Assembly (NCBI RefSeq): GCF_004011835.1
Contig: NZ_RKLN01000002.1
Span: 105,469-169,468 of the forward strand
From: Rhodococcus spongiicola
GTDB lineage: Bacteria; Actinomycetota; Actinomycetes; Mycobacteriales; Mycobacteriaceae
Direction of reading: 5' to 3'
DNA: 64,000 nt
Shown: positions 14,676 through 53,667 of the stretch, in pieces
How positions within the stretch are numbered: position 1 is the first letter of the stretch
Layout: each line of letters begins with the position of its first letter
Notes under the pieces: generated by a model
Database searches by the model: none
What the model was told of the DNA's origin: nothing
Seen by the model: the letters and a program-made list of their open reading frames with translations, nothing else
Program-made: the position numbers and the translations under genes

Positions 14676-15569
14676 ATGCCGCTTTCGAACCGTGTGCCGG
14701 AACTCGCCGCGCTGGAAGTGCTGATCGCGGTGGGTCGGCTCGGAAGTATGGGCGCGGCCGGACGTGAACACGGATTGAGTCAGCAGGCGGTCAGCGCGCG
14801 TGTGCGCTCCGCCGAGCGTCAACTTGGGATCCGGGTGTTCGACCGCGGTGCCGGCGGTGTCCAGCCCACCGCCGAGGGGGCGCTGATCCTCGAATGGGCC
14901 TCGGCGATCCTCGACAGCGCCGAGGAACTGGCCTCGGGCGTCGCGGCGGTGCGTGGTGAACTGGACGCCAACCTCACCGTCGCCGCCAGCATGACCATCG
15001 CCGAGTACCTGGTTCCCGGGTGGACCGTCACGATGCGACGTAAGTGCCCCAATGTCGTGACATCGGTACGGCTGTCGAACTCCACCGAGGTCGCCGCCCA
15101 GGTGCGGGCGGGTGACGCCGATCTCGGGTTCGTCGAAGGCCCCGTCGTGCCGAACGGGCTGCGCTCGGTCGAGGTCGCGCGGGACGAACTGGTCGTGATC
15201 GTGCCGCCCGGCCACAAGTGGATCCAGCGGGCGCCGATCGCGGTGACCGAACTCGCCGAGACTCCGCTGATCCAACGTGAACCCGGATCGGGCACCCGCA
15301 TCACACTCGAACACGCGGTGCCCGGCTGCGTCGAACCGATTCTCGAACTGGGGTCGTGCACGGCGGTGAAGGCGGCCGTCGTCGCAGGCAATGCACCCGC
15401 GGTCGTCTCATCACTCGCGGTAGAGGCCGATCTGAACGACGGTCGGCTCGCATCCGTCGAGGTCGAGGGGCTGTGCATGCCGCGTCGGCTGCTCGCGGTA
15501 TGGGACGAGTCCCGGGGGCTGCGGGGCGCGGCCCGCGACTTCCTCGACATCGCCCGCGGTGCGGGCTAG
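14676..15569 (+). CDS. LysR-family transcriptional regulator
   Basis: The product has 297 residues. The N-terminal winged helix-turn-helix (LEVLIAVGRLGSMGAAGREHGLSQQAVSARVRSAERQLG, written here as separate halves LEVLIAVGRLGSMGAAG and LSQQAVSARVRSAERQLG) covers about residues 10-60. The C-terminal substrate-binding domain begins near residue 90 (LTVAASMTIAEYLVPGW). It probably senses a small effector and controls the divergent TDT/SLAC1 transporter gene, the standard LysR arrangement. The TAG stop (15567-15569) lies inside the first unit of a tandem repeat that runs to the end of the convergent trmL gene. Confidence 0.88.
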   Translation: MPLSNRVPELAALEVLIAVGRLGSMGAAGREHGLSQQAVSARVRSAERQLGIRVFDRGAGGVQPTAEGALILEWASAILDSAEELASGVAAVRGELDANLTVAASMTIAEYLVPGWTVTMRRKCPNVVTSVRLSNSTEVAAQVRAGDADLGFVEGPVVPNGLRSVEVARDELVVIVPPGHKWIQRAPIAVTELAETPLIQREPGSGTRITLEHAVPGCVEPILELGSCTAVKAAVVAGNAPAVVSSLAVEADLNDGRLASVEVEGLCMPRRLLAVWDESRGLRGAARDFLDIARGAG

Positions 15570-15622
15570 ACGACATCGCCCGCGGTGCGGGCTAGACGAC
15601 ACCGCCCGTGCTTCGGGCTAGA
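15545..15622. repeat. Three 26-bp tandem repeats bridging two convergent stop codons
   Basis: Units at 15545-15570, 15571-15596 (identical) and 15597-15622 (diverged). Each contains a GCCCG...CGGGC stem and ends GGGCTAGA. The CTAG gives a stop codon on both strands: the lysR TAG is in unit 1 and the trmL stop in unit 3. The array therefore fills the convergent gap and should act as a bidirectional terminator. Confidence 0.9.
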
Positions 15623-16106
15623 CGCCCCCGGCGAACCCGTGCTGTCGCCACGCTTCGTAGGTGACGACCGCGGCCGCGTTCGACAGGTTCAGTGACCGCC
15701 GTCCCGGGACCATCGGGATCCGCACCTGCGCAGTGACGTGCGGATCGGTGAGCACCTGTTGCGTCAACCCCGTAGGTTCGGGCCCGAACAGCAGCACGTC
15801 CCCTGGCCGGTAGGCGATTTCGGCGTACGGCGTCGAGCCGTGCGCCGTGAACGCGAATACCCGGTCCGGCTGCAGCGCCGCCCACGCCGCGTCGAGGTCC
15901 TCGTGGACCGTCACCGATGCCAGGTCGTGGTAGTCGAGTCCTGCACGGCGGAGTTTCGGTTCGGACAGGTCGAACCCGAGCGGCCCGACGAGGTGCAGTT
16001 CGCACCCGGTGCCCGCGACCAAACGGATCGCGTTCCCGGTGTTGGGTGGGATGCGAGGCTGGTGGAACATCACCTTGAACACAACGAACTGTAACAAACC
16101 GGGCAT
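15618..16106 (-). CDS. trmL: tRNA (cytidine/uridine-34-2'-O)-methyltransferase TrmL (SpoU class)
   Basis: This 162-residue SPOUT-fold methyltransferase 2'-O-methylates the wobble base of certain leucine tRNAs using SAM. Family signatures: HQPRIPPNTGNAIRLVAGTG at the N-terminus, DVLLFGPEPTGL, and the knot sequence VRIPMVPGRRSLNLSNAAAV. ATG 16106 was chosen because CGGAG lies 5 bp upstream; a GTG at MFKVMFHQPR would match the family start more closely and remains possible. The gene is convergent with lysR and shares its tandem repeat. Confidence 0.88.
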   Translation of the reverse strand: MPGLLQFVVFKVMFHQPRIPPNTGNAIRLVAGTGCELHLVGPLGFDLSEPKLRRAGLDYHDLASVTVHEDLDAAWAALQPDRVFAFTAHGSTPYAEIAYRPGDVLLFGPEPTGLTQQVLTDPHVTAQVRIPMVPGRRSLNLSNAAAVVTYEAWRQHGFAGGV

Positions 16107-16235
16107 GGCGGCTCCGCTGGAGAACGGCCGTGGTCTCGGCAGGCAGCGCGAAACGCCGGGAACAGACCAAAGGCCTGTCAGAGCCTTGCGACCCACGTCA
16201 TGGGCAGGAAGGCTCAGTGGAAGGAGGCGAAGTAG

Positions 16236-17432
16236 ATGAAGGCACTTGTCTGCGGAGCCGGCCTCGCGGGACTGACCCTGGCGCACCGGCTTTCGGTGCT
16301 CGGCGTCGAAGTGGTGCTGTTGGAGCGCGCGCCGGGGCCACGGACGCAGGGTTACATGATCGATTTCTTGGGGCCTGGCTACGACACTGCCGAGGCGATG
16401 GGCCTGCTACCAGCCGTTCGGGAAGTGGCGTACTACCTCGAGGAAGCCACCATGGTCGATGAGGGTGGTCACCGCCGGGCGAGCCTCCCAATGGCTCTGT
16501 TGGCTCCGGGCCCGCGGCTCGATGTGATGCGGCCCGACCTCGAGCGTGTACTGCGCGAATCGTTGCCGCCCTCGGTGGAACTGCGATTCGGCGTCGGCCC
16601 GGTCGCGGTCGAGGACCGGGGCGGTTCGGTTCGGGTCATCCTGGACGACAGTTCGGAGCTCGATGTCGACCTTCTCGTCGGTGCCGACGGACTGCACTCG
16701 ACTGTGCGGCGGCTGACCTTCGGGGATGAGTCTGAATACCTGCGCTACTTGGGTTTTCACACAGCGGCCTTTACCTTTCCGGACGACGAGCTCAATGAAG
16801 CACTCGCCGGCCGCTTCTGGATGACCGACACCGTGGACCGGTTGCTGGGCCTGTACGCGTTACGCGACAAGCGTGTTGCCGTCTTCGCCATTCACCGCAG
16901 CCCGGATCCCACCGTGCCCGACGATCCCCGTGCGGCGCTTCGCGAAACCTACAGCGGAATGGGCTGGCTGGTGCCCCAGATACTGAGCAAGCTTCCATCT
17001 CCGTCGGAGATCTACTACGACCAGGTTGCACAAGTCTTGATGCCGAACTGGTGCAAAGGCCGGGTCGTGCTCGTGGGCGACGCCTGCTTCGCGGTGTCGG
17101 TGCTCGCCGGCCAGGGCGCGTCGATGGCCATGGGTGGCGCCTACGTGCTGGCCGATCGATTGTCGCGCACGGCATCGATCGAACAGGCGCTGTCCGGCTA
17201 CGAGAAGCTGTGGCGGCCAGTGGTCGAACGAACTCAGCGGCAGGGCCGCTGGTCGGGCGGCTTCTTCGTACCCGGATCACAGCGATGGCTGTTGGCACGG
17301 CGTGCGGTGCTGCGGGCGCTGCAGCTACCCATCATCGACCAAGTGGCAAGCGCGGCAGCGGCTCGGGCCGGTGAACCCATTGACCTGATCCCCGTGCTGC
17401 ACCGGAGTCAATCGACGGCGGCGGGACCCTGA
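16236..17432 (+). CDS. FAD-dependent monooxygenase (PHBH class)
   Basis: The product has 398 residues. The N-terminal dinucleotide motif VCGAGLAGLTLAHRLSVLG, the second motif LLVGADGLHSTVR (about residues 150-160) and the FAD-ribityl motif GRVVLVGDACFAVSVLAGQG (near 275-295) define a group A flavoprotein hydroxylase. It would hydroxylate an aromatic or polyketide-like substrate with NAD(P)H and O2; some relatives inactivate antibiotics, but no substrate can be assigned. Strong RBS (AAGGAGG, 9 bp before ATG). Divergent from trmL and convergent with the SRPBCC gene. Confidence 0.82.
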   Translation: MKALVCGAGLAGLTLAHRLSVLGVEVVLLERAPGPRTQGYMIDFLGPGYDTAEAMGLLPAVREVAYYLEEATMVDEGGHRRASLPMALLAPGPRLDVMRPDLERVLRESLPPSVELRFGVGPVAVEDRGGSVRVILDDSSELDVDLLVGADGLHSTVRRLTFGDESEYLRYLGFHTAAFTFPDDELNEALAGRFWMTDTVDRLLGLYALRDKRVAVFAIHRSPDPTVPDDPRAALRETYSGMGWLVPQILSKLPSPSEIYYDQVAQVLMPNWCKGRVVLVGDACFAVSVLAGQGASMAMGGAYVLADRLSRTASIEQALSGYEKLWRPVVERTQRQGRWSGGFFVPGSQRWLLARRAVLRALQLPIIDQVASAAAARAGEPIDLIPVLHRSQSTAAGP

Positions 17433-17476
17433 CGCCCAACGATTTCGAGACGAGAAACGATATTCGAGAAACAAGA

Positions 17477-17926
17477 TCAGAGTGCGGTGGCGAGTTTGTC
17501 GAGGGCCATCGAGTGTCCTTCGCGGGTGCCGGCGATCATGTCGTCACCCACGAACGAGCAGATCTGCGAGACCACGGTGACTTCGGTCCCGTCGTCGTTC
17601 GGATCGAGGCTCCAGGTCACCAACGAGATCGCAAGTGGTTCCGCGTCCAGCGATATCGTCTCGCTGTAAACCAAACGAACACCCTCCTTGATATCGAGGT
17701 AGCGGACTCGCCCGGTGAGTTCTGCCTGACCGACGGGCCCGCATCGGAAGTCATCCACCCCGTCCACTTCGAACGAGGTGCTTGTGTACACGACTTCGTG
17801 CCCCTCGGGTGCCGTCCAGGAAGCACGACGCTCAACGTCTGCGTAGGCCGCGAAAATCTTGTCGGGCGACACCGGATAACTGCGTGCGACCTCCACTGTG
17901 CTGTGGCTCAGAGTGGGAGTGCTCAT
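17477..17926 (-). CDS. SRPBCC/AHSA1-domain protein
   Basis: The 149-residue protein is a START-like helix-grip domain of the AHSA1 type (VEVARSYPVSPDKIFAAYAD; SWTAPEGHEVVY; TSLVTW-like core; final helix MALDKLATAL). These proteins bind hydrophobic ligands or act as small stress partners; no catalytic residues are evident. It is translationally coupled to the ArsR regulator gene upstream (ATGA overlap 17923-17926), a very common arsR-ahsa1 pair. Confidence 0.82.
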   Translation of the reverse strand: MSTPTLSHSTVEVARSYPVSPDKIFAAYADVERRASWTAPEGHEVVYTSTSFEVDGVDDFRCGPVGQAELTGRVRYLDIKEGVRLVYSETISLDAEPLAISLVTWSLDPNDDGTEVTVVSQICSFVGDDMIAGTREGHSMALDKLATAL

Positions 17927-18297
17927 CGGGGTCCCTTCTGGTTGGTCTGATCTGTCGAGTCGGCGGCTGTCAGGACAGCGACCACCTCGTCGAGCCGGTC
18001 CAAACGTGCCTCATAGCGATTCCGCCTGCTTGCCGACCACCGCTCGAGGCGTGCAAGTCCGTCTTGGAGTAGTTCGTGCACCCTGACCCTTCCGACCTTG
18101 CGTGATACGACCAGATCGGCCGATTCGAGGTGCTGCAAGTGTTGAACCACCGCGGCCAAGGACATCTCGAGCGGTCCCGCGAGCGCCGATGTGGTTGCAG
18201 GCCCGTAGGCCAGACGCGTGATGACGTCGCGCCGGGCGGGATTCGCCAGCGCTTTGAAGACTGCATCGATGTCATCGGGCACGCGGTCATCGGGCAC
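17923..18297 (-). CDS. ArsR-family winged-helix repressor
   Basis: The product has 124 residues. The wHTH spans about residues 8-95 (VFKALANPARRDVITRLAYGP; LEMSLAAVVQHLQHLESADLV; VGRVRVHEL). The ELCVCDL metal-box of ArsR/SmtB sensors is absent, so it belongs to the non-metal subgroup usually paired with AHSA1/SRPBCC genes. A 15-bp direct duplication at 18271-18300 makes the N-terminus read (V)PDDRVPDD and provides two possible GTG starts (18297 and 18282). The first fits a leaderless promoter perfectly. Its target is probably its own operon through the dyad at 18336-18350. Confidence 0.85.
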   Translation of the reverse strand: MPDDRVPDDIDAVFKALANPARRDVITRLAYGPATTSALAGPLEMSLAAVVQHLQHLESADLVVSRKVGRVRVHELLQDGLARLERWSASRRNRYEARLDRLDEVVAVLTAADSTDQTNQKGPR

Positions 18298-18303
18298 GCG
18301 ACA

Positions 18304-18350
18304 ACTCTAGGCACAGGTACCGGTGACAGTCAAGTAATCACTTAAGTATT
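18304..18350 (-). promoter_or_regulatory. arsR promoter and operator
   Basis: On the minus strand, TTGACT (18328-18333) and TAGAGT (18304-18309) are separated by 18 bp and the GTG start follows 6 nt later, giving a leaderless promoter. Just upstream lies a near-palindrome, AATCACTTAAGTATT (18336-18350; central ACTTAAGT), suited to ArsR autorepression. Confidence 0.65.
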
Positions 18351-18416
18351 TAGGCGCCGCACCGTCGGACCTACATCCGGTCGAAATTGCCGGTGTTCGA
18401 GGGCAGGATGGGAAGC

Positions 18417-19043
18417 ATGGCGGGAGAACTGTTGGAGATCGTCGGAGAGGACTTCTCCGACGCGGGCCTTCCTCGACAGACCTGGAGCCGACAGCACTAC
18501 ACCGAGTGCTCGTTCCGGGACGCCGACCTGCACGGATTGCGCACCGAGTTCACGGTGTTCAGCGGGTGCGATTTCACGGGCGCCGACCTCGTCGATTCGC
18601 ACCACTTCTCGAGCGCCTTCCGTTCCTGCATGTTCACTCGGACATCTTTGGGGCACAGCCGCTTCCGGGGGACAAGTCTGCTCGGATCGGTCTTCGTCGA
18701 CTGCCAGTTCCGGCCGATGCTGATCGACGAGGCCGACCTCACCCTGGTGTCGATGGTTGGTGCCGACCTGCGGGGCGTCGACTTCATCGATTCACGGCTC
18801 CGGGACGCCAACCTCGTGCAGGCCGACATGCGCGGCGCGAACCTACGGTCCGTAGACCTGTTCGGTGCACGCGTCGAGGGTCTGCGGCTCGACGGGGCCG
18901 ACCTGCGCGGCGCGCACGTCGATCCTGGGCTCTGGAAGGCCGCCAGCCTCGACGGCGCTCATGTCGAACAAACTCAGGCGGTGGCGTACGCGACCGCGCG
19001 CGGACTCGTCGTCGAACCAGCTGTGACGCTCAGCGGGCGGTAG
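18417..19043 (+). CDS. Pentapeptide-repeat protein (MfpA/Qnr-like fold)
   Basis: The product has 208 residues. Most of the chain is A(D/N)Lxx-type pentapeptides ([54 protein letters not shown]), which build a right-handed quadrilateral beta-helix. DNA-mimic relatives such as MfpA bind gyrase and modify fluoroquinolone response, but many others have unknown roles, so gyrase binding is only a possibility. ATG 18417 was chosen (GGGAAG upstream); ATG 18408 is also in frame. Divergent from arsR. Confidence 0.8.
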
Positions 19044-19145
19044 CACGCGATCGTGGCGGCGTCGGACGGCGGCCAGGTTGGACCCGCCAGATTGGACGAT
19101 CGTCGGTACGACGCGTGGACCGTGGATCCGGAGCCGGTGTCACGA

Positions 19146-19174
19146 GGCGACCATTGCCTGGAACAATGGTCGCC
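19146..19174 (+). promoter_or_regulatory. Perfect 11-bp inverted repeat enclosing the folD ATG
   Basis: Arms GGCGACCATTG (19146-19156) and CAATGGTCGCC (19164-19174) are exact inverse complements around a 7-nt loop CCTGGAA. The folD ATG (19166-19168) is inside the right arm, and a GTG alternative start (19175) begins directly after it. It could be an RNA hairpin that hides the start region or a DNA operator. Confidence 0.6.
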
Positions 19175-20044
19175 GTGACTGCGACGATTCTCGATGGCAA
19201 GGCAACCCGCGACGAGATTTTCAAGGACCTCGAGGCCCGGGTGTCGGCCTTGAAGGGGAAGGGCATCACACCCGGTCTGGGCACCATTCTCGTCGGCGAC
19301 GATCCTGGATCCGCGGCGTACGTACGTGGCAAGCACAACGACTGCGCCAAGGTCGGAATCACCTCGATCCGCCGGGATCTGCCGGCTGACATCACGCAGG
19401 CCGAACTCGAGGCCACGATCGACGAGCTGAACTCCAACCCCGAATGCACCGGCTACATCGTCCAGCTCCCGCTGCCGCGGCACCTCGACGAGAACGCCGC
19501 GCTCGAGCGCATCGACCCCGGTAAGGACGCCGATGGCCTGCACCCAGTGAATCTGGGCCGCCTCGTCCTCGGCAAGGAGGCGCCGCTGCCGTGCACCCCG
19601 CGCGGCATCGTCCACCTGTTGCGCCGCTACGACGTCCCGATCGCCGGCGCACACGTTGCTGTCGTCGGACGAGGAGTCACCGTCGGTCGCCCGATCGGCC
19701 TACTGCTGACCCGCCGCACCGAGAACGCCACGGTCACGCTGTGTCACACCGGAACCCGTGATCTCGCCGCGCAGGTGCGGCAGGCCGACATCGTCGTCGC
19801 CGCGGCCGGTGTGCCCGGACTGATCAAGGCCGACATGGTCAAGCCCGGGGCCGCGGTCCTCGACGTGGGCGTCAGCCGCACCGAGGACGGACTCGCGGGT
19901 GACGTCGCAGACGACGTTCGTGAGGTCGCCGGATTCATCTCGCCGAACCCCGGTGGCGTCGGACCGTTGACCCGGGCGTTCCTGCTCACCAACGTGGTCG
20001 AGCGGGCCGAGCAGCTAGCCGGCTTGGACGGCAACCAGAGCTAG
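19166..20044 (+). CDS. folD: Bifunctional methylenetetrahydrofolate dehydrogenase/cyclohydrolase FolD
   Basis: The 292-residue protein oxidises 5,10-methylene-THF to methenyl-THF with NADP and hydrolyses it to 10-formyl-THF, supplying one-carbon units for purines. Signatures: [23 protein letters not shown] (in part, including the catalytic YxxxK, here YVRGK), [19 protein letters not shown], and the NADP site [16 protein letters not shown] 19166 gives [14 protein letters not shown] 19175 gives VTATILDG and is an equally good start. The DUF3017 gene follows by 8 bp in the usual folD-DUF3017 pair. Confidence 0.93.
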
Positions 20045-20052
20045 GACAGCCA

Positions 20053-20340
20053 ATGACCCAACCCGTGATGCAGTTCGCGCGCCGAAACCTGCCGATGCTG
20101 GCCGTCCTCCTCGTGGTGGCGGCCGCATTCGCGCTGGTGCTCGCCGACCGGTGGCGGCGTGGCGCCTTCGTCCTCGGTGGAGCCATGCTTCTCGCGGCGT
20201 TTCTGCGGGCGGTGTTGTCACCGGAGCGGGTGGGATTGCTCGCGGTGCGCGACAAGGGGTTCGATGTCGTCGCCATGACCGCAGTAGGCGCGGCGATCAT
20301 GGCGCTGGCGGCATCGATCGACCCGCTCGGCACCGACTGA
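20053..20340 (+). CDS. DUF3017 small membrane protein
   Basis: The 95-residue protein has three hydrophobic segments (MLAVLLVVAAAFALVLA; GAFVLGGAMLLAAFLRA; VVAMTAVGAAIMALAAS) and the family motif LSPERVGLLAVRDKGFD. It lies 8 bp after folD, the position in which this actinobacterial family is typically found. No function is known. It probably shares the folD transcript and converges on metX. Confidence 0.85.
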   Translation: MTQPVMQFARRNLPMLAVLLVVAAAFALVLADRWRRGAFVLGGAMLLAAFLRAVLSPERVGLLAVRDKGFDVVAMTAVGAAIMALAASIDPLGTD

Positions 20341-20364
20341 TGTGACCGACGGGTCGCGAGGGTC

Positions 20365-22829: not shown

Positions 22830-22958
22830 AAGTCGTCTACTCCAGGTTCGGGAGATGATGGTCGGCGTATGAGCTGGCGCAGAGTCGTGCGCGCCGGGGA
22901 CCGGCTAATGGTGAGAGCAGCACATGCTGAACCTCCGTTGGGGCATGGCCCGGTCAGT

Positions 22959-22978
22959 GGGTCCGTCCCAGCGGACCC
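22959..22978 (-). promoter_or_regulatory. Hairpin 3' of the SAM-IV aptamer
   Basis: GGGTCCG (22959-22965) pairs with CGGACCC (22972-22978) over a 6-nt loop. It directly follows or overlaps the 3' end of the aptamer and may be part of the expression platform (attenuator or sequestering stem). Confidence 0.5.
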
Positions 22979-23093
22979 GCGCTTGTTCCTCGACTTTCGT
23001 CGGGAAACCTGGTCATCACCCGGGGCACCCCACCGCGGTTGGAGGGTTGCCGGCCAGCGAGCCGGGGCTTGGCGCTGGCGCTCTTGACCTCTC
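22972..23093 (-). ncRNA. SAM-IV riboswitch in the metY leader
   Basis: Read on the minus strand from 23093, the leader contains GGTCAAGAGCGCCAGCGCC, AAGCCCCGGCTCGCTGGC, CGGCAACCCTCC, CGCGGTGGGGTGCCCCGGGT and GATGACC in that order. This is the conserved core of the actinobacterial SAM-IV class, in which GGTCA near the 5' end pairs with TGACC near the 3' end. It lies about 140 nt before the metY start. Exact ends are approximate. Confidence 0.9.
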
Positions 23094-24628: not shown

Positions 24629-24648
24629 CCCTGCCCCACGCAACGATG

Positions 24649-26009: not shown

Positions 26010-27942
<1,933 letters not shown>

Positions 27943-27949
27943 TTAGCGC

Positions 27950-28975
27950 ATGGCCGGTGCCGCACCGAGCTTCCTCGACAGACAGCGAGCGGCGCGGCCG
28001 TGGGTGGATCACCTCGTCCGGGCGGGTAGGCGCTACCAGCAGCAGCAGGGCAACCACTACGCCGCCGGGATCACCTTCTTCACGATTCTCGCGATCGTCC
28101 CGATCCTGATGGTGGCGTTCGCCGTTGTGGGTTTCGTGCTCGCGGGTCGGCCCGAGGTGCTCACCGAGATCCAAGACCAGGTCAGCACCAGCATGCCGGG
28201 TGGCCTCGGCGACACCGTCAACGACCTGATCGATTCCGCGATCTCCTCCCGCGCCGGCGTCGGGGTCGTGGGTTTCCTCGGCGCCACGTACGCGGGGCTC
28301 GCTTGGATGGCCAACCTGCGCGACGCTCTGACCGCGATGTGGGAACACACACGAAAGGAGCATGGCCTCGTCGTCACGAAGCTCCGGGACTTCGTCAAGC
28401 TGGTGGGTCTGGGTCTGGCGTTGATCGTGACGTTCGGGTTGTCGGCGCTGAGCAACGGCCCGGTCGCCCAGCGCGTCGTGGAATGGCTCGGGGTCGAGAA
28501 CGCCCTCGCCGGCGGAGTTCTGCTGCGGATCACCTCAGTGGTGGTCGCTCTGCTCGCGACGTGGGGCCTGTTGACCTGGGTGATCGCCCGGCTGCCACGT
28601 GAACCGGTGACGCTGCGCAGCGCAATGCGGGCCGCGTTCGCCGCTGCGATCGTGTTCGAACTCTTTCGCCAGGTGGGTGCCATCTACCTGAACGCAGTCA
28701 GCCAAGGACCCGCCGGCGTGGCATTCGGGCCGATCATCGGTCTGCTCGTGTTCAGCAACCTGGCCGCGAGACTGGTTCTGTTCGCGACCGCGTGGGCGGC
28801 GACCGCGCGTGAGAACGTCGAGCAGGCGTTCGTGCCGCCGCCCGACTCGGCCGTCATACAGCCGCGGGTGCAGGTTCGCGAAGGGGTGTCGGTGAAGGAA
28901 GCGGTGATCCTCACCGGCGCGGGTGCGCTTGCGGCGATCGGGCTGGCCGGCTTGTGGCGCCGTCGGGCGCAGTGA
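27950..28975 (+). CDS. YihY/BrkB-family inner membrane protein (YhjD-like)
   Basis: This 341-residue protein has about six to seven helices with the YihY family features GNHYAAGITFFTILAIVPILM, GFLGATYAGLAWMANLRDALTAMW (written in part) and FGPIIGLLVFSNLAARLVLFA. The molecular role is unsettled; YhjD relatives have been linked to export of lipid A precursors, which is not relevant in an actinobacterium. It follows trpS by 7 bp. The TGA stop (28973-28975) lies inside the first unit of a tandem repeat array that reaches to the stop of dacB. Confidence 0.85.
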   Translation: MAGAAPSFLDRQRAARPWVDHLVRAGRRYQQQQGNHYAAGITFFTILAIVPILMVAFAVVGFVLAGRPEVLTEIQDQVSTSMPGGLGDTVNDLIDSAISSRAGVGVVGFLGATYAGLAWMANLRDALTAMWEHTRKEHGLVVTKLRDFVKLVGLGLALIVTFGLSALSNGPVAQRVVEWLGVENALAGGVLLRITSVVVALLATWGLLTWVIARLPREPVTLRSAMRAAFAAAIVFELFRQVGAIYLNAVSQGPAGVAFGPIIGLLVFSNLAARLVLFATAWAATARENVEQAFVPPPDSAVIQPRVQVREGVSVKEAVILTGAGALAAIGLAGLWRRRAQ

Positions 28976-29076
28976 CCAGTGGCGCCGTCGGGCGCAGTGA
29001 CCAGTGGCGCCGTCGGCGCGGTGACTATCGGCGCCACCGGCGCGGTGACTATTGGCGCCACCGGCGCGGTGATCAC
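28955..29076. repeat. Five 24-25-bp tandem repeats bridging two convergent stop codons
   Basis: Units: 28955-28979 and 28980-29004 (identical 25-mers), 29005-29028, 29029-29052 and 29053-29076 (diverged 24-mers). The core is GGCGCC..CGGCGC followed by GTGAC/GTGAT. The yihY TGA lies in unit 1 and the dacB stop (TCA on the plus strand, 29073-29075) in unit 5, so the whole convergent gap is repeat. Each unit can fold on itself. Confidence 0.9.
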
Positions 29077-30347
29077 CGACGGCGACGCCTGAGTATCCGG
29101 GCCCAGCCGAACAGGCCGACGAGTACTCCGAATCCCACGAGACCGATCGCGAAGCGTAGGGCTACGTCTTGGTTCGGCAAGTCCGAGCCCGACGCCAAGT
29201 CCATGCCGCCCGGACCATGAGTAGCCGGTTCGATGACCTCGATCACGCGCTCATCGGACTCGGTCGCGGGGGGCACCAGAGTGCCCACGGACACCGTACG
29301 GTCCAGGCCGAAACCGTAGTCGAGCAGTCGCGCGGCCTGCTCCCACGGACGGATCGGAGCGAGGTCCGCCTCGAGGATCACCACTGCGAGCCGCCGTCCG
29401 TCCCGCTCGGCCCCGCCGACGAAGGTGTGTCGGGCGTCGTCGGTGTACCCGGTCTTGCCGCCGAGGGCTCCCGGGTAGTTCGCGAGCAGCGGGTTGTCGT
29501 TGTAGATCGGATACGGCTCGACGGGCTGATCGCCGGGCTGCGCCGGATCGGCGGGGTTGCCGGGGAACAACACCGTGTCCGTCGCGATCGACCGCGCGAA
29601 GATCGGGTTCTGCATGGCAGCGCGGAAGATGAGCGCGAGGTCGTACGGCGACGTCGACATCCCCGGGCCGTCGAGACCGGAGACCGACGCCGCCCGGGTG
29701 TCCAGCGCGCCCAGGTACCTGGCCTTGGCGTTCATCTTCGCGACTGCCACTTCATCGCCGCCGAGCTGTGCTGCGAGAGCGTGCGCGGCGTCGTTGCCCG
29801 AACGCATCAGTAGGCCCTGCATCAGCTGGAGATTGGAGTACGCCCCGCCCGCGCCGAGACCGACGGAACTGCCCTCCATAGCGGCGTCCGCCGCGTCCGC
29901 GACATAGGTCTTGTCCAGATCGAGTTCGTCGAAAGCGACGAGTGACAGCAGAACCTTGATCGTGCTGGCGGGCCGGTAGCGACCGTGTGGATCCTTGGCG
30001 GCGAGTACCTGCCCGGTGTCGAGATCGCACAGGATCCAGGCGGTGGCGGAAATGTCGGCCGGCAACGGCGGCGTTCCGGGAGCGGTGACTATCCCGCAGT
30101 TTCCGAGTTCCCCGCCGCCCACCGGAGAGTCCGGAACCGGAAGCGGCATCGGAGCCGCCTGCCCCGGCTTCGGCACCTCGGAGAGGTCTATCGCCGGCGG
30201 TGGAGACTCGCGGTAGGGGCACTCATCGGTGTTCGTGGGGGGCTGTGCCGCTACGGGGAGCGGGAGAGCGGCCCCGACGCCGAGAGCGAGTGCGGAGGCC
30301 GTGGCGGTCAGGAGGATTCGCCGCGCGGAATTCGGGAGTGCAGCCAT
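29073..30347 (-). CDS. dacB: D-alanyl-D-alanine carboxypeptidase (DacB/PBP5-like)
   Basis: The 424-residue serine peptidase trims D-Ala from peptidoglycan stem peptides. It has an N-terminal signal peptide (LLTATASALALGVGAALPLPVAAQ), the catalytic Ser-Lys in STIK (128-131), SGN (183-185) and KTG (298-300), and a C-terminal transmembrane anchor (FAIGLVGFGVLVGLFGW) followed by RILRRRRR. This gives an exported enzyme tethered to the membrane. Start ATG 30347; GTG 30350 directly precedes it. It begins 9 bp after the membrane-protein gene upstream and is probably in its operon. Confidence 0.93.
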   Translation of the reverse strand: MAALPNSARRILLTATASALALGVGAALPLPVAAQPPTNTDECPYRESPPPAIDLSEVPKPGQAAPMPLPVPDSPVGGGELGNCGIVTAPGTPPLPADISATAWILCDLDTGQVLAAKDPHGRYRPASTIKVLLSLVAFDELDLDKTYVADAADAAMEGSSVGLGAGGAYSNLQLMQGLLMRSGNDAAHALAAQLGGDEVAVAKMNAKARYLGALDTRAASVSGLDGPGMSTSPYDLALIFRAAMQNPIFARSIATDTVLFPGNPADPAQPGDQPVEPYPIYNDNPLLANYPGALGGKTGYTDDARHTFVGGAERDGRRLAVVILEADLAPIRPWEQAARLLDYGFGLDRTVSVGTLVPPATESDERVIEVIEPATHGPGGMDLASGSDLPNQDVALRFAIGLVGFGVLVGLFGWARILRRRRR

Positions 30348-30356: not shown

Positions 30357-30833
30357 TCAGCGTATGGGAGGAGTTCCGGGGTGTTGTGGTGGCGCGCTGG
30401 CGCCGTCCCGCTTGTTCTTCCCGGGGTACTGATCCTTCTGAGTGATCCACTGATCCTTCTGAGTGATCCACTGGGCCTTCTGATCGAACCACTGAGCCTT
30501 CTGATTGATCCACTTGCGTGTTCGCGGATCTCCGACAAGGAAGACCGCGAAGATCGGCGACCCGACCACGCTGGCTCCGGCCCGCATGTAGTCGCCTGCG
30601 AGAGCGAGTGCGATCGTCGCAACCGCGCCGAACGAGAGATAGGTGACGGTCAGGAAAACAGCTGGTTCCTGACTCAGTTTCAGCGCACGCCAAACCGTGA
30701 CCGCCGCCGCGACCGGAATGCACAGCAGCAGTAAGACCCTGGGTCCCTGATTGGATGCGTCCGCCACCATCTGACCGACCATCACAGCGCACCAGACTCC
30801 CAGTACGGCGGTGACGCCGAGATTGAACTTCAT
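30357..30833 (-). CDS. Four-helix membrane protein with a tandem WxxQKxQ tail
   Basis: The product has 158 residues and no recognised family. Four hydrophobic segments (NLGVTAVLGVWCAVMVGQM; VLLLLCIPVAAAVTVWRA; AVFLTVTYLSFGAVATIAL; GASVVGSPIFAVFLVG) are followed by a hydrophilic tail with four heptads, WINQKAQ-WFDQKAQ-WITQKDQ-WITQKDQ, and a Pro-rich end. The tail is probably cytoplasmic and helical with tryptophan on one face, suggesting a membrane-surface or protein-binding element. GGGAG precedes the ATG. It lies 9 bp upstream of dacB, so a cell-envelope role is likely but unproven. Confidence 0.7.
   Translation of the reverse strand: MKFNLGVTAVLGVWCAVMVGQMVADASNQGPRVLLLLCIPVAAAVTVWRALKLSQEPAVFLTVTYLSFGAVATIALALAGDYMRAGASVVGSPIFAVFLVGDPRTRKWINQKAQWFDQKAQWITQKDQWITQKDQYPGKNKRDGASAPPQHPGTPPIR
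30429..30512 (-). repeat. Four 21-bp tandem repeats encoding the WxxQKxQ heptads
   Basis: Units 30429-30449 and 30450-30470 are identical; 30471-30491 and 30492-30512 are diverged copies. The unit is 21 bp, so copy number can change without shifting frame. Each unit encodes one heptad. Confidence 0.9.
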
Positions 30834-46153: not shown

Positions 46154-46167
46154 GCTTGACACCTTAT

Positions 46168-46183
46168 GTTACTCGTGAGTAAC
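46168..46183 (+). promoter_or_regulatory. Second TTACT-N4-AGTAA dyad, before the enoyl-CoA hydratase gene
   Basis: GTTACTCGTGAGTAAC has perfect 7-bp arms around GT. The inner TTACT-CGTG-AGTAA has the same half-sites and spacing as the dyad before the acyl reductase gene (5194-5207). It ends 9 bp before the hydratase ATG (46193) and lies in the 39-bp gap shared with the phosphorylase gene. Confidence 0.7.
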
Positions 46184-46192
46184 CTCCGGCCC

Positions 46193-46897: not shown

Positions 46898-46934
46898 CCC
46901 GGGTCCGGTCCCCAAGAGTGAGAGACTGGGGGCT

Positions 46935-48122: not shown

Positions 48123-49288
48123 ACGAGGGCAGGTCGATGAATGAGGGCGTCGAGAAGTGGCTCGCCGAGCACGCGATGGATCTGTCCCGGTGGCGCAGAC
48201 ACTTCCACATGAACCCGGAACTGGCCCGGCACGAGTTCGGGACCACCTCGTTCGTCGCGAGTCAATTGTCGGCGGCGGGAATGTCGCCACTGTTGCTGCC
48301 TGGTGGGACCGGCGTCGTCTGCGACATCGGGCCGGGCGGGATGCGGATCGCTCTGCGTGCCGATCTCGATGCGTTGCCGTTGCAAGAAGCCACCGGTGTG
48401 GCGTACGCGTCCACGGTGCCGGGGGTCGATCACGCGTGTGGCCACGATGCGCACACCGCGATCCTGCTCGGAACCGCCCTTGCGCTGAATTCGTTGCCAC
48501 AGTTGCCGATCGGCGTGAGGTTCATCTTCCAGCCGGCCGAGGAAGTGATGCCCGGTGGCGCGCTCGACGTCGTCGCCGCAGGCGGCATGCAGGGTGTGTC
48601 GCGGATCTTCGCGCTGCACTGCGATCCGCGCCTGGAGGCGGGACGGGTCGGGGTCCGGGTCGGGGCGATCACGTCCGCCGCGGACACCGTCGAACTCGTG
48701 CTCGACTCACCGGGTGGGCACACGTCGCGGCCACATCTGACGACGGACCTGGTGTACGCGATCGGCACCGTGATCACGGGTCTGCCCGGGATGCTCAGCC
48801 GCCGGATAGACCCACGCAGCGCAACCGTGATGGTGTGGGGTGCGGTGAGCGCGGGGCAGGCCCCCAACGCGATCCCGCGCAGCGGCATCCTCACCGGCAC
48901 CGTCCGCACCGGTGACCATGACACGTGGGCCCTGCTCGAACCGACGGTCCGCGAGATCGTGCACGGGCTGCTCGCGCCGACCGGGGTGCGGTACGAACTC
49001 AACTACCGGCGGGGTGTGCCTCCAGTCGTCAACGACGAGGTGTCGGCGCGAATTCTCGAGGACGCCGTGCGAGCGATCGGCCCCGACGCGCTCGCGGACA
49101 CCCCTCAGTCGGGCGGCGGCGAGGACTTCTCGTGGTATCTCGAGGAAGCGCCGGGCGCCATGGCTCGCTTGGGTGTGTGGTCGGGGCGCGGCCCGCAACT
49201 CGACATCCACCAGCCGACGTTCGACATCGACGAGCGAGCTCTTGCGACTGGAGTGCGGGTTCTGACGAACCTGGTGCTGCAGTCCTGA
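48119..49288 (+). CDS. M20-family amidohydrolase (AmiA1-like)
   Basis: The 389-residue paralogue of the preceding gene has RHFHMNPELARHEFGT, RADLDALPLQE, DHACGHDAHTAILLG and FQPAEEVMPGGA, the full M20D metal set, and ends ...TNLVLQS. GTG 48119 overlaps the previous stop; ATG 48137 with GAGGGCAGG upstream is an alternative start. The stop codon TGA (49286-49288) lies inside the first unit of a 16-bp tandem repeat. The substrate is probably an N-acyl amino acid or peptide amide; not determinable here. Confidence 0.86.
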   Translation: MNEGRSMNEGVEKWLAEHAMDLSRWRRHFHMNPELARHEFGTTSFVASQLSAAGMSPLLLPGGTGVVCDIGPGGMRIALRADLDALPLQEATGVAYASTVPGVDHACGHDAHTAILLGTALALNSLPQLPIGVRFIFQPAEEVMPGGALDVVAAGGMQGVSRIFALHCDPRLEAGRVGVRVGAITSAADTVELVLDSPGGHTSRPHLTTDLVYAIGTVITGLPGMLSRRIDPRSATVMVWGAVSAGQAPNAIPRSGILTGTVRTGDHDTWALLEPTVREIVHGLLAPTGVRYELNYRRGVPPVVNDEVSARILEDAVRAIGPDALADTPQSGGGEDFSWYLEEAPGAMARLGVWSGRGPQLDIHQPTFDIDERALATGVRVLTNLVLQS

Positions 49289-49323
49289 AAGGCTGTAGTC
49301 CCGAAACGCTGCAGTCGTGAAAC
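49276..49323. repeat. Three 16-bp tandem repeats from the amidohydrolase stop codon
   Basis: GCTGCAGTCCTGAAAG (49276-49291), GCTGTAGTCCCGAAAC (49292-49307) and GCTGCAGTCGTGAAAC (49308-49323), then a partial GCAGCC. The array starts in the last codons of the amidohydrolase gene, includes its TGA, and ends 18 bp before the stop of the convergent cyclotransferase gene. Confidence 0.85.
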
Positions 49324-49341
49324 GCAGCCGGGGGACTACGG

Positions 49342-49812
49342 CTAGGCCGTGCCGGGGCCCACGTTGCGACTGTTGCGGGTGCGAAGGCTGCGGACGTAGT
49401 CGGCGGGGGCTCCGGCGGTCTCGGCGGCGTCGGCGATGACACCGAGGTAGCGCGCCGAGGGCAGGCCACCCTCGTACGCATCGAGCACGTACAGCCAGGC
49501 CAGCACGGGGCCATCGGCGGTGTCGATGCGGAGCCGGATCTTGCGGTGTAGGCCCAGTTCGGACCCCTCCCATCGGTCCAGTCGGCTCTCGTCCTCGTCC
49601 GGGACGTCGTACAGCACCACGAACACCTTGGCATCCGGATCGTCCGGATCCTCGACGACGGTGGCGAGCGCACCCTCCCAACCGATGTCGTCACCGCTGA
49701 ACGTGAGCCGCCAGCCGTGAAGCCAACCCGTGCCCGCCGTGGGGGAGTGTGGGCAGCGTTCGAGCATCTGTTCCGGGTGCATGTTGGACCCGTACGCGGC
49801 ATAGATCGGCAC
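49342..49812 (-). CDS. Gamma-glutamylcyclotransferase-fold protein
   Basis: The 156-residue GGCT/AIG2-type barrel has the substrate loop YAAYGSNMHPEQML (YGSN) and VVLYDVPDEDESRLDRWEG (catalytic Glu in the WEGxExG-like block). It would cyclise a gamma-glutamyl amine to 5-oxoproline, releasing the amine; the natural substrate is uncertain. It occupies the same position as the mycobacterial Rv3304 gene. Convergent with the amidohydrolase pair. Confidence 0.85.
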   Translation of the reverse strand: MPIYAAYGSNMHPEQMLERCPHSPTAGTGWLHGWRLTFSGDDIGWEGALATVVEDPDDPDAKVFVVLYDVPDEDESRLDRWEGSELGLHRKIRLRIDTADGPVLAWLYVLDAYEGGLPSARYLGVIADAAETAGAPADYVRSLRTRNSRNVGPGTA

Positions 49813-50012
49813 GGCGGCAAGCCTAATCTGTGTGCAGCACCCACGGGTAGTGGAAGAGCCGTCCGCGCACGATCGTGCAAGTTCGGCCGTACAGGTTCGC
49901 CGTGGCGAAGGCAGTCTCGAGGGGCCCTCGCCTGCGTGTTCCCGGTCACTGGAATAGCGTTGTCCGCGGGCCCACCGGAGATCCCGGTAGGCGCCGCGAG
50001 CTTGGAGGACGA

Positions 50013-51419
50013 ATGACCCGGATCGTGATCATCGGTGGCGGACCAGCCGGATACGAAGCGGCCCTGGTGGCTGCCCAGCACGGGGCCAACGTGTCACTGA
50101 TCGACTCCGACGGCATCGGCGGTGCGTGTGTGTTGTTCGACTGCGTGCCCTCGAAGACCTTCATCGCGTCCACCGGAATCCGCACCGACATGCGCCGGGC
50201 CACCGACCTGGGCATCTCCGTCGACCCGTCCAACGTCTCCATCTCGCTTCCGAAGATCAACTCACGCGTCAAGAACCTCGCACAGGCTCAGTCCTCCGAC
50301 ATCCGCGCTCGCCTCCAGAGCGTCGGCGTGCAACTGCTGTCCGGTAGGGCCGAGCTGATCGACCCGCAGATCGGGATGGCCGCCCACCTGGTGCGGGCAA
50401 CCCTCACCACCGGTGAGGAGAAGACTCTCGAAGCCGACGTCGTCCTCATCGCGACTGGTGGCAGCCCGCGCGTGCTCCCCGGTGCCGTGCCGGACGGCGA
50501 GCGCATCCTGACATGGCAACACCTCTACGACCTGGAGGAGTTGCCCACCCACCTGGTAGTCGTGGGTTCGGGTGTCACGGGCGCCGAGTTCGTGTCGGCC
50601 TACACCGAGATGGGTGTCAAGGTCACGTTGGTGTCCAGCCGTGACCGTGTCATGCCGCACGAGGACGCGGACGCGGCACTGGTCCTCGAGGACGTGCTCG
50701 CCGAGCGCGGCGTCACGCTGGTCAAGCATGCGCGCGCCGACGCTGTCGAGCGCACCGACGACGGGGGCATCGTCGTCAAGCTCACGGACGGCCGCACCGT
50801 GCACGGCAGTCACGCGCTCATGGCGGTCGGGTCCACCCCGAACACGAGTGGTCTGGGCCTCGAAAAGGTCGGCATCGAGCTCGACGGGGGCGGCTACATG
50901 CGCGTCGACCGCGTCTCCCGCACCTCCGTGTCCGGCATCTACGCCGCCGGCGACTGCACCGGCCTGCTGCCGCTGGCCTCGGTGGCCGCGATGCAAGGCC
51001 GTATCGCGATGTACCACGCGCTCGGCGAGGGCGTGAGCCCGATCAAGCTCAAGACGGTCGCGTCGGCGGTGTTCACGCGCCCGGAGATCGCCAACGTCGG
51101 CGTGAGTCAGGCCGCGATCGACAACGGCGAGGTGGCCGCCCGCACGGTCATGCTGCCGCTCAACACGAACCCGCGAGCCAAGATGTCGGGTCTGCGCCGC
51201 GGCTTCGTGAAGATCTTCTGCCGCCCCGCCACCGGTGTGGTCATCGGCGGTGTCGTGGTCGCGGTGAACGCATCCGAGTTGATCCTCCCGATCGCGATCG
51301 CGGTCCAGAACAACCTCACCGTGGGTGACCTAGCGCAGACCTTCTCGGTGTACCCGTCGCTGACCGGGTCGATCACCGAGGCGTCGCGCCAACTCATGCG
51401 GCACGACGACCTGGGTTAG
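50013..51419 (+). CDS. lpdA: NAD(P)H-quinone dehydrogenase LpdA (flavoprotein disulfide reductase family)
   Basis: The 468-residue protein has FAD motif VIIGGGPAGYEAALVAAQHG and a modified redox-active region GGACVLFDCVPSKTFI with cysteines at C-x4-C-like spacing; NAD(P) motif VVGSGVTGAEFVSAY; FAD motif GIYAAGDCTGLLPLASVA; dimer domain VFTRPEIANVGVS. The C-terminal His-Glu pair of true lipoamide dehydrogenases is absent (LTGSITEASRQL), matching the LpdA/Rv3303c quinone-reductase subgroup. GGAGG 5 bp before ATG. Confidence 0.9.
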   Translation: MTRIVIIGGGPAGYEAALVAAQHGANVSLIDSDGIGGACVLFDCVPSKTFIASTGIRTDMRRATDLGISVDPSNVSISLPKINSRVKNLAQAQSSDIRARLQSVGVQLLSGRAELIDPQIGMAAHLVRATLTTGEEKTLEADVVLIATGGSPRVLPGAVPDGERILTWQHLYDLEELPTHLVVVGSGVTGAEFVSAYTEMGVKVTLVSSRDRVMPHEDADAALVLEDVLAERGVTLVKHARADAVERTDDGGIVVKLTDGRTVHGSHALMAVGSTPNTSGLGLEKVGIELDGGGYMRVDRVSRTSVSGIYAAGDCTGLLPLASVAAMQGRIAMYHALGEGVSPIKLKTVASAVFTRPEIANVGVSQAAIDNGEVAARTVMLPLNTNPRAKMSGLRRGFVKIFCRPATGVVIGGVVVAVNASELILPIAIAVQNNLTVGDLAQTFSVYPSLTGSITEASRQLMRHDDLG

Positions 51420-51614
51420 CTCCGGCTTCGACTCTGTCCAGAATATGAGAATCGTCGTTCACATAGTGAATTGACTGTGGGATGATCGGATAGGTCGAGA
51501 CCATCGGCCTCATCTTCGCGCTCGCCGCCCCGTGGATCCGGGACGACTTGGGTGCCCCCGTCTTCATCTGTCGCCGCCGTGTGCGACGGCAGTACCTCGT
51601 ACTTCGGAGTCGCC

Positions 51615-52844
51615 ATGTCGGTCGATTCGCCGTCACTCGATCCTTCCCTGCGGCTGTCGTCGCGGATGGCCGGATTGCGCAGTTCCGCCATCCGCGATCT
51701 GCTCACGTTCACCGCTCGGCCGGAGGTCATCAGCCTCGCGGGTGGGCTCCCTGCGGTGGAACTCGTGCCGCGTGAACGCATCGCGCGGGCCGCGCAGCGA
51801 GCGCTCGGCGACCCGCGTTCGGTCCAGTACGGCGAGACGTCGGGGTGGGCGCCGCTGAGGGAAACCGTCGCCTCTCGCGAGAGCGACGCGGTGGGACGCC
51901 GTCTCGATTCGTCCGAGGTGGTCATCACGCACGGATCGCAGCAGGCGCTGAGCCTGCTCGCACAGGTGCTGCTCGACCCTGGAGACACCGTCGTCGTCGA
52001 GGAACCGGGGTATACCGGGGCGTTGCAGGCCTTCGGGGCCGCGCAGGCCGCACTGGTGCCCGTCGCTCTCGACGCCGATGGCATGGACACTGCTGTCCTC
52101 GAAGAGGCATTGACAGAAGGATTGCGGCCCAAAGTCGTCCACACGGTCAGCAACTTCCACAACCCGCGCGGCGTTGTGCTGTCCGCGCAGCGCCGGGAAC
52201 ACCTGGCGTCGCTCGCGGACCGGTACGGGTTCTGGATCATCGAAGACGATCCCTATGGCGAGTTGTGGTTCGATGCGCCGGCACCCGCACCCGTCGCCGC
52301 CCACTCGGACCGGGTGCTGCGGCTGTCGAGCGGGTCCAAGACCCTCGCGCCCGCGCTGAGGGTCGGCTGGCTGCACGGCGATCGCCGCGTGTGTGAGGCG
52401 GTCGAACTCATCAAGCAGGGCACCGATTTGTGTGGGTCGTCGCTGACGCAGAGGATCGCGACGGAATTGCTCGACGACGGTGCGTGGCTCGACACGCATC
52501 TGGCCACCGTGCGCGGCGCCTACGCGGCGCGGTCCGGTGCGCTGATCCGCGCGCTCGAATCGGCTTTCGGGGAACGACTTTCGCACACCGAGGTCTTCGG
52601 TGGCATGTTCTGCTGGATCGAGTTCACCGACGGTTGCGACACCACCCGACTTCTCGAAAGGGCGATCGAGCACGACGTCGCGTTCGTGCCGGGCGGCGCG
52701 TTCGGCGTCGCGAAGGGACACCCGCACGCGGCGAGGTTGTGCTTCGCGACCTACGACAGTGCGGCGCTGGTCGAGGGGGTCGATCGGCTACGCCGAGCGT
52801 ATGACGCCCATCTACGGACTCCCTGGTCCGCAACCGGTCACTGA
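51615..52844 (+). CDS. PLP-dependent aminotransferase (class I/II, 2-aminoadipate type)
   Basis: The 409-residue fold-type I transaminase has FTARPEVISLAGGLPAVELVP, HGSQQALSLLAQVLLDPGDTV (in part), the aspartate-tyrosine block IIEDDPYGELWF and the PLP lysine in LSSGSKTLAPALRVGW. This pattern is that of LysN/valine-pyruvate-type aminotransferases related to MocR effector domains, but no DNA-binding domain is present. ATG 51615 has GGAG 5 bp upstream. The substrate is not assigned. A small TTCAC-ATA-GTGAA dyad (51458-51470) lies in the upstream gap. Confidence 0.85.
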   Translation: MSVDSPSLDPSLRLSSRMAGLRSSAIRDLLTFTARPEVISLAGGLPAVELVPRERIARAAQRALGDPRSVQYGETSGWAPLRETVASRESDAVGRRLDSSEVVITHGSQQALSLLAQVLLDPGDTVVVEEPGYTGALQAFGAAQAALVPVALDADGMDTAVLEEALTEGLRPKVVHTVSNFHNPRGVVLSAQRREHLASLADRYGFWIIEDDPYGELWFDAPAPAPVAAHSDRVLRLSSGSKTLAPALRVGWLHGDRRVCEAVELIKQGTDLCGSSLTQRIATELLDDGAWLDTHLATVRGAYAARSGALIRALESAFGERLSHTEVFGGMFCWIEFTDGCDTTRLLERAIEHDVAFVPGGAFGVAKGHPHAARLCFATYDSAALVEGVDRLRRAYDAHLRTPWSATGH

Positions 52845-52944
52845 GCGACGGGCGGGACCGGTTCGAGTTATCGACTTATGGCCCTATGCCTCCCCTCCGG
52901 GCCGCATCGACACTGGTGTCATCGACCGGTTTCGGGAGATGGCG

Positions 52945-53535
52945 ATGACCGATATGAACATTTCGGTGGCGCGCCTGTGGCGCCTAGCGCCATGGAGCGG
53001 CAATCGCCTGATGCGTCGCAGCGATCGCCTCGAATCCCTCTCGATACTCTTCGTCACCCTGGTGCTCGCGATGCTGATACCCCTCGCCGGGGCGGTGGGC
53101 ACGAGCACCTATACCGGTCTCTCCGACGCCGCACGACAGGTCAGACAGACGAACCAGCAGGTTCCCGCCGTCCTACTCGGCGACGCCCCGTCGCCCCAAA
53201 CTCGCGGGACAGGCATGTACGACCGCGCTCGTGCGCAGTGGTCGGTGGACGGGACACCACGCACGGGCTTGATCGACGTCGACGGCGAGATCCAGGTGGG
53301 CCGAACCGTGGACATTTGGATCGACCCCGAAGGCAACTACACGGAACCTCCGAGCACCGGCGCGGAGAACGCCTTCGGCGCGGTGGGTGCCGCGCTCATG
53401 TTCTGGGCCTTCGGTTCGGCAGGATGCGTGCTTGTGCTGCTCGCAGTCCACTCGATGGCGAACAGGTACCGGCTACGGTGCTGGCAGCGGGAATGGGACA
53501 GCCTCGGCCAGACACGAGGGTGGTCCTTGAACTGA
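52945..53535 (+). CDS. Two-TM membrane protein of the Rv1733c type
   Basis: The product has 196 residues. A basic Trp-rich N-terminus (ARLWRLAPWSGNRLMRRSDRLE) precedes helix 1 (LSILFVTLVLAMLIPLAGAVG). An extracytoplasmic domain of about 90 residues (AQWSVDGTPRTGLIDVDGEI, VDIWIDPEGNYTEPPS) follows, then helix 2 (AALMFWAFGSAGCVLVLLAV) and a short cytoplasmic tail. The layout matches the Rv1733c family of mycolate actinobacteria; function unknown. ATG 52945 has GGGAG at good spacing. Its TGA lies inside the first 15-bp repeat unit that follows. Confidence 0.75.
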   Translation: MTDMNISVARLWRLAPWSGNRLMRRSDRLESLSILFVTLVLAMLIPLAGAVGTSTYTGLSDAARQVRQTNQQVPAVLLGDAPSPQTRGTGMYDRARAQWSVDGTPRTGLIDVDGEIQVGRTVDIWIDPEGNYTEPPSTGAENAFGAVGAALMFWAFGSAGCVLVLLAVHSMANRYRLRCWQREWDSLGQTRGWSLN

Positions 53536-53573
53536 TCTGCGGCGAACTGATCTGCGGCGAACTGATCTGCGGC
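53529..53573. repeat. Three identical 15-bp repeats starting at the membrane-protein stop
   Basis: GAACTGATCTGCGGC occurs at 53529-53543, 53544-53558 and 53559-53573 without mismatch. The gene's TGA is at 53533-53535 in unit 1, and in-frame copies add further TGA codons on the same strand. Confidence 0.95.
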
Positions 53574-53617
53574 CTGGGCTGACCTTCCCGCCGGCGGCAC
53601 ACCCGAATACGCGGCCA

Positions 53618-53667
53618 GACTGCTTGGGGCGAGACCGCTTGGAGTGAGACTGCTCGGGATGAGACTA
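53618..53667. repeat. 15-bp repeats ending at the glpK stop
   Basis: GACTGCTTGGGGCGA (53618-53632), GACCGCTTGGAGTGA (53633-53647), GACTGCTCGGGATGA (53648-53662) and the start of a fourth unit at 53663, which contains the glpK stop (CTA, 53665-53667). It is unrelated in sequence to the array at 53529-53573, yet both have 15-bp units and meet in the same convergent gap. Confidence 0.85.

Follow-up and report, generated by a model that had tools for sequence, protein, structure and literature searches.

Tandem arrays that cross gene stops at four convergent junctions in Rhodococcus spongiicola are probably young minisatellites of a duplication-rich lineage, filtered by selection and harmless at gene 3′ tails, a reading to which we assign a probability of about three in four. 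The four junctions lie in the window, the 64,000-nucleotide stretch of the genome analysed here, and their arrays look like ordinary cases of the short tandem duplications of this lineage. The reading draws on an excess of short duplications over congeners, a reading-frame rule within genes and the position profile of arrays around gene ends, together with the shallow reach of arrays into genes, one unit at the deepest at most stops, and with the sister species, in which three of the four junctions have close to a single unit.

Tandem arrays cross gene stops at four convergent junctions

Tandem Repeats Finder (TRF) detected five arrays at four junctions of the window, all convergent, and reading of the sequence gave the same result, which confirmed the arrays listed in the earlier note. 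That note had also claimed that the tandem unit contains a stop codon. This is true of the gene in which each array begins, whose stop lies inside the unit nearest to the gene. As shown in Table 1, the arrays run head to tail and their units fall within the roughly 10–100 bp of minisatellites, or variable-number tandem repeats (VNTRs). The array at 28954 combines two TRF rows, one of 24 bp with 4.9 copies (28954–29072) and one of period 48 that runs to 29086. For the array on the glpK side, the TRF end (53666) falls one base before the end of the stop, so this array was excluded from the counts of stops inside arrays given below. Gene identities are NCBIfam matches; neither the 157-codon frame at 49342–49812 nor the 159-codon frame at 30357–30833 matched an NCBIfam family.

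Table 1. Tandem repeats of the window, their state in the sister species, and the polymerase frame discussed in the text
Feature	Position	Strand	Context	Sister species
26-bp unit, 3.1 copies	15545..15624	+	Spans stop of LysR-type gene (15567-15569), extends to stop of opposing TrmL-like gene (end 15618; match below curated cut-off)	One unit (28 bp versus 80 bp in the window)
24-25-bp unit, 5 copies	28954..29086	+	Spans YhjD stop (28973-28975), extends to stop of DacD-like gene (end 29073; match below cut-off)	Also expanded, with copies differing between the two species
16-bp unit, 3.1 copies	49276..49325	+	Spans stop of amidohydrolase gene (TIGR01891; 49286-49288); opposing 157-codon frame ends at 49342	One unit (16 bp versus 50 bp in the window)
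15-bp unit, 3.0 copies, 100% match	53529..53573	+	Spans stop of Rv1733c-family gene (53533-53535)	About 0.9 unit
15-bp unit, 3.6 copies, 79% match	53613..53667	-	First copy contains the TAG stop of glpK (GlpK end 53665)	1.6 units
21-bp in-frame array, 4.1 copies	30428..30514	-	Near 3′ end of 159-codon frame 30357-30833	3.2 copies
15-bp perfect duplication	18271..18300	.	Divergent gap	About one unit
Y-family polymerase, 372-residue open frame	G000:C28:14783-15214 and G013:C17:449643-450074		Two species only among 14	

All five arrays differed in copy number between the window species and the sister species. The sister species, with close to a single unit at three of these junctions, upheld the proposal of the earlier note that gene 3′ tails had been duplicated in tandem, and the units look unrelated by eye, in line with its claim that a process rather than a sequence family is shared. 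The YhjD junction was compared at seven of 14 loci (the window species, the sister and five other congeners), the other seven having no motif match, and no array was seen by eye in the five other congeners whose junction was printed.

Repeats of other kinds were also found. A 126-bp repeat of 6.5 copies, unlike the short arrays in length, lies within a gene at 829–1652 of the window, and its consensus resembles a YVTN-type beta-propeller repeat. Elsewhere in the sampled genome, stretch L037 carries at 757–1243 a 265-bp tandem duplication with two tRNA-Phe/tRNA-Asp pairs, in a gap called convergent; it was left out of the counts at periods 10–80. In stretch L039, a 475-bp unit is repeated 2.9 times at 13289–14662, starting within a tRNA-Trp gene (13263–13338).

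Arrays are not confined to convergent junctions

The 3.97-Mb genome (29 contigs) was sampled as the window plus 60 further stretches, amounting to 1.09 Mb or 27% of the genome (1.08 Mb without the contigs that read as N). Genes were called by an in-house codon-usage script, which places stops more reliably than starts. This yielded 156 convergent, 621 tandem and 157 divergent junctions, at which arrays were scored at a TRF score of at least 45 and a period of 10–80. The scope is therefore one clade, seen through samples and an in-house gene caller.

Arrays occurred at 24 convergent, 51 tandem and 23 divergent junctions, and their densities per kb of gap were 1.16, 0.67 and 0.52, respectively. 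Equal density at tandem or divergent gaps, which the earlier note had named as counting against its proposal, was thus half found: arrays do occur at those gaps, at a lower density than at convergent ones. Stops wholly inside arrays numbered 22 of 312 at convergent and 15 of 621 at tandem junctions (Fisher p=0.0011). Because the window had been picked for its arrays, this count was redone without it, giving 16 of 288 convergent versus 15 of 588 tandem stops (p=0.031). By the in-house gene calls, 4 of 12 convergent junctions in the window carried arrays versus 20 of 144 in the remaining sample, indicating that the window was a favourable draw. Stratification by gap class without the window left a pooled odds ratio of 1.9 for convergent stops, a point against the minisatellite reading.

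The bulk of the convergent excess came from gaps of 20–100 bp, in which 17 of 148 convergent and 5 of 180 tandem stops lay in arrays; the corresponding counts were 3 of 44 and 3 of 113 in gaps of 100–200 bp, and 0 of 44 and 4 of 111 in gaps above 200 bp. The median convergent gap was 53 bp. Arrays within 60 bp of a stop were also counted for gaps above rising minimum lengths. In gaps of at least 80 bp, 13 of 110 convergent ends had one, versus 26 of 277 tandem ends; the counts were 5 of 72 versus 20 of 194 in gaps of at least 120 bp, and 1 of 60 versus 15 of 142 in gaps of at least 160 bp. A convergent excess independent of gap length was therefore not found, the excess being gone at 160 bp and above. 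The shortage of arrays in long convergent gaps may be due in part to genes missed by the in-house caller.

The specificity for convergent ends implied by the earlier note was thus not supported, with an excess of about twofold outside the window, none in gaps of at least 160 bp, and arrays present at tandem and divergent junctions as well as in frame within genes. The arrays do not form a device specific to the ends of convergent genes. The same data bear on the cause that the earlier note had suggested, namely collision of replication with transcription at convergent ends, considered here as a head-on collision of these two or of two RNA polymerases, with breaks repaired by duplication. The twofold excess would suit this cause, and the window genome has Ku and LigD-type polymerase domains; in mammalian cells, according to the part of the source cited here, end joining of protruding ends yields tandem duplications (PMC5730883). 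Collision, however, predicts an excess specific to convergent ends, which fails in long gaps, and arrays also occur where genes do not converge. Moreover, Ku was matched in 14 of 14 genus genomes, including ones with few or no such duplications. Collision is therefore an unlikely source of the arrays.

Arrays lie past stops, seldom near starts and in frame within genes

Array coverage was 4.7% in bases 20 to 3 before convergent gene ends, and 11.2, 12.9, 8.9, 4.5 and 0.6% in successive 20-bp bins after convergent stops. It was 4.7–5.8% over the first 60 bp past tandem stops, and in the 20 bp upstream of starts it was 1.3% at tandem and 0.7% at divergent junctions; 12 of 935 starts were inside arrays. 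The 37 stops inside arrays belong to 33 distinct arrays. At 32 of these stops (18 of the 22 convergent ones and 14 of the 15 tandem ones) the array intruded into the gene by one period at most, and at the other five it extended deeper. With an intrusion of at most one period, the protein end is preserved by the first copy.

All 31 exact coding duplications of period 12 or more had periods divisible by three, as did 31 of 32 when the limit was lowered to period 10, whereas intergenic periods were unrestricted. This is the pattern of minisatellites, in frame inside genes and free outside them. The intragenic array at 30428 likewise has a period divisible by three.

The frame of the periods also bears on backup stop codons, a role that the earlier note had considered, in which copies would be retained as extra stops behind the first. 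In the perfect 15-bp array at 53529, TGA does recur in frame. Of the 33 distinct stop-spanning arrays, however, 11 had a period divisible by three (4 of the 18 convergent ones and 7 of the 15 tandem ones), which is the third expected by chance; later stops were in frame no more often than this. In the array of glpK, the copies after the first have CAG, CGG and CAG in place of the TAG, so that the stop is lost. We consider a backup role hardly credible.

Bidirectional termination, the other role raised in the earlier note, fared little better. Here each unit would be a hairpin that stops transcription from both sides, and copies would be selected at convergent junctions. The 26-bp unit could fold into a stem of 6 bp closed by a 3-base loop, the stem being retained and the loop altered in the third copy, and the 24–25-bp unit contains a GC-rich stem; the folding energies of the two units are about −11 to −12 kcal/mol. 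Against this, the 15- and 16-bp units of the window reach just −1.5 to −3.8 kcal/mol, and units folded no better than their shuffled versions, with a mean z of 0.11 at convergent junctions (n=24, standard error 0.19), 0.04 at tandem junctions (n=55), 0.29 at divergent junctions (n=24) and 0.07 in coding sequence (n=157). None of the 24 convergent units was at or below the 5% folding level. Units above 40 bp were left out of this assay, and the array at 28954 was consequently absent from it; its 24–25-bp units, folded separately, gave a z of about −0.35. Long convergent gaps, moreover, are short of arrays. Tandem terminators are therefore very unlikely.

Short duplications are in excess in the window species and its sister

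Exact tandem duplications of period 12 or more were then compared between the window species, its sister, four congeners (G011, G001, G006 and G008, 200 kb each) and 80 named loci. Intergenic DNA held 37 in 141.3 kb of the window species and 7 in 41.2 kb of the sister, versus 5 in 107.8 kb of the four congeners and 7 in 74.4 kb of the named loci; the density in the window species was about six times that of the congeners. The congeners were uneven (G011, 0; G001, 0; G006, 2; G008, 3). Within genes, the window species had 31 (925 kb), the sister 11 (320 kb), the congeners 7 (683 kb) and the named loci 4 (455 kb). The window species differed from the congeners in both intergenic (p=1.2e-5) and intragenic DNA (p=0.0016), and likewise from the named loci (p=0.005 and p=0.003), with no significant difference in duplication rate from the sister (p=0.19), indicating that the excess is a property of the species pair. 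In a check against randomised intergenic DNA, made as second-order Markov copies in six rounds, 0.0 such duplications occurred versus 35 observed.

The excess was limited in period. Exact duplications of 5–7 bp showed none (0.446 per kb over expectation versus 0.425 in congeners), nor did those of 8–11 bp (0.043 versus 0.042), and no exact intergenic duplication of period 30–90 was present in the sampled window species. Imperfect intergenic TRF arrays reached at least 30 bp in 6 of 109 cases, one of them the 24–25-bp array at 28954, and two exact coding duplications had periods of 30 and 72.

Counted over all periods, arrays contained 23 of 312 convergent and 15 of 621 tandem stops in the window species, 2 of 108 and 2 of 221, respectively, in the sister, 0 of 262 and 5 of 443 in the four congeners, and 2 of 166 and 0 of 265 at the named loci. 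TRF coverage over all periods was 12.8% of convergent gaps versus 2.6% at the 80 named loci, the former value being inflated by a pair of long arrays that includes at least one of tRNA genes, and 4.6% of the convergent gaps of congener G011. Coverage was 3.3% versus 2.0% in tandem gaps and, in the reverse direction, 2.2% versus 3.9% in divergent gaps. By TRF coverage, an excess over the named loci is thus clear only at convergent gaps, which counts against the minisatellite reading.

The genomes of the two species are smaller (4.0 and 3.7 Mb versus 4.4–5.8 Mb in the congeners sampled) and lower in G+C (65% versus 67–70% in the four congeners), a hint of genome reduction.

Many arrays have about one unit in the sister species

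The sister genome (G013) is 90–94% identical to that of the window species across aligned stretches above 6 kb, and the YhjD proteins share 97% identity, versus 75–79% for 12 of the 13 other genus genomes. Seventeen intergenic arrays had a located counterpart in the sister. Nine of them have at most 1.3 units there (4 of 6 convergent, 2 of 5 divergent and 3 of 6 tandem arrays), and the remaining eight are partly or wholly shared. In the reverse comparison, three of six intergenic arrays of the sister have at most 1.3 units in the window species; sister arrays of the added stretch L222 were labelled coding, since no genes were called on it. An alignment read indel by indel showed 11 insertions of at least 4 bp as tandem duplications (nine in the window species and two in the sister), and it was not used, as it split known arrays into several gaps. 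Gain of units in the window species, and not their loss in the sister, would be the simpler reading, with the outgroup comparison covering the YhjD junction alone.

A changed polymerase set as a possible cause of the excess

Such an excess could stem from a lineage-specific mutator that makes tandem duplications of about 12–29 bp, for which a changed set of Y-family polymerases and staggered breaks joined by Ku–LigD are the named candidates. A mutator is compatible with the minisatellite reading, of which it would be the cause, and we regard it as possible though not probable. In its favour are the excess over congeners, sixfold between genes and threefold within them, and the restriction in period, with no excess at 5–11 bp and no exact intergenic case at 30–90 bp. 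Furthermore, the 372-residue Y-family frame of Table 1 was not seen in the 12 other genomes, and the two species are without the best-scoring Y-family type, which was found in 8 of those 12. On the other side, the comparison covers one clade, in which any shared difference could account for the excess; the common Y-family type is also missing from G011 and G012, and G011 has no intergenic cases; longer periods exist, as among the TRF arrays and coding duplications above; and slower repeat loss would serve as an alternative. The Y-family difference tracks the excess in one clade and is a lead and no more. The more specific proposal, that a changed replication or repair activity of the two-species clade makes these duplications at several times the rate of the genus, with the arrays as its footprint and the Y-family set as first suspect, is rather doubtful.

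Among the genes tested, none that would explain the excess was found, which counts against the minisatellite reading. Loss of one of the tested repair genes was rejected as the cause, since these families were matched in all 14 genus genomes (Ku, NucS, 5′ nuclease domain, ExoVII large subunit, Y-family polymerase, DnaE-type polymerase, LigD polymerase domain and RecG) and the absences did not fall in the two species with the excess. Above the curated cut-off, the LigD domain was matched in 12 of 14 (main copy absent in G011 and G012) and RecG in 13 of 14 (short in G003, a 79% complete genome); the second DnaE-type copy was absent in G011 and G012. In the window species, a second DnaE-type polymerase gene, which we take to be DnaE2-like, lies at 5418–8702 of the window, and a Y-family polymerase match lies about 5 kb before the window (G000:C12:100411).

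Discussion

The arrays are real and mostly ordinary, and they are probably minisatellites kept at harmless sites. We propose that segments of about 12–29 bp would undergo tandem duplication in the window species and its sister at a net rate that is unusually high, most simply through polymerase slippage or template misalignment aided by 1–3 bp of microhomology, and that some arrays would lengthen through further slippage. For two-copy cases, the identity at the boundary averaged 1.95 bp in intergenic DNA versus 0.76 simulated (21 cases), and 2.89 bp in coding DNA versus 0.92 (18 cases). This favours slippage or misalignment with slight microhomology over blunt joining, and we infer that slippage is the generating step, although older partial third copies may inflate the boundary identity.

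Purifying selection would then act as the filter and set the place of retention. Within genes, only multiples of three would survive, and arrays would be rare near starts because ribosome-binding sites and promoters are located there. A duplication of a 3′ tail from the last codons through the stop would leave the first copy, and hence the protein, unaltered. Since a convergent gap has two tails, no start and a short length, an array in it may be nearly forced over a stop.

Mycobacterial interspersed repetitive units are, like the arrays described here, tandem repeats in actinobacterial intergenic DNA. They form one related sequence family with longer units, whereas the units of the window look unrelated. 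Repeats of the present kind are already known from the VNTRs of Yersinia pestis, where, in the parts of the report considered here, units of 7–21 bp make up 84.1% of 88 loci, 48 loci are intergenic, 24 are located within ORFs and have a unit length divisible by three, 10 lie over stops and 6 over starts, one start case being a CRISPR (PMC3689786). That placement is similar to the placement of the arrays in the window species, which belongs to a different phylum. The same parts of that report expect less effect at stops and put differences in diversity down to purifying selection; they also describe very low diversity at some 3′ or stop-overlapping loci, where constraint is suspected, and this is a point against the harmless-site reading (PMC3689786). 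Unlike that study as far as the parts considered go, the present one counts junction orientation, finds a near-single-copy sister state at three junctions and compares densities with congeners. The joining of protruding ends, in the part of its report cited above, yields short tandem duplications as here; that system consists of mammalian cells with Cas9 nick pairs, whereas the present arrays have somewhat more microhomology at their boundaries than simulated duplications and are not linked to the presence of Ku (PMC5730883). A literature search on short tandem repeats at bacterial stop codons or convergent genes found no paper, from which we do not claim absence from print.

To this the present analysis adds the counts per junction type, the comparison with the sister and the excess over congeners. 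The sites at which short duplications survive hint at which bases of a junction matter and are likely a map of selection. Furthermore, a species pair that shows the excess, and in which the sister has about one unit at several sites, is a usable case for the question of what governs the rate of short tandem duplication in bacteria.
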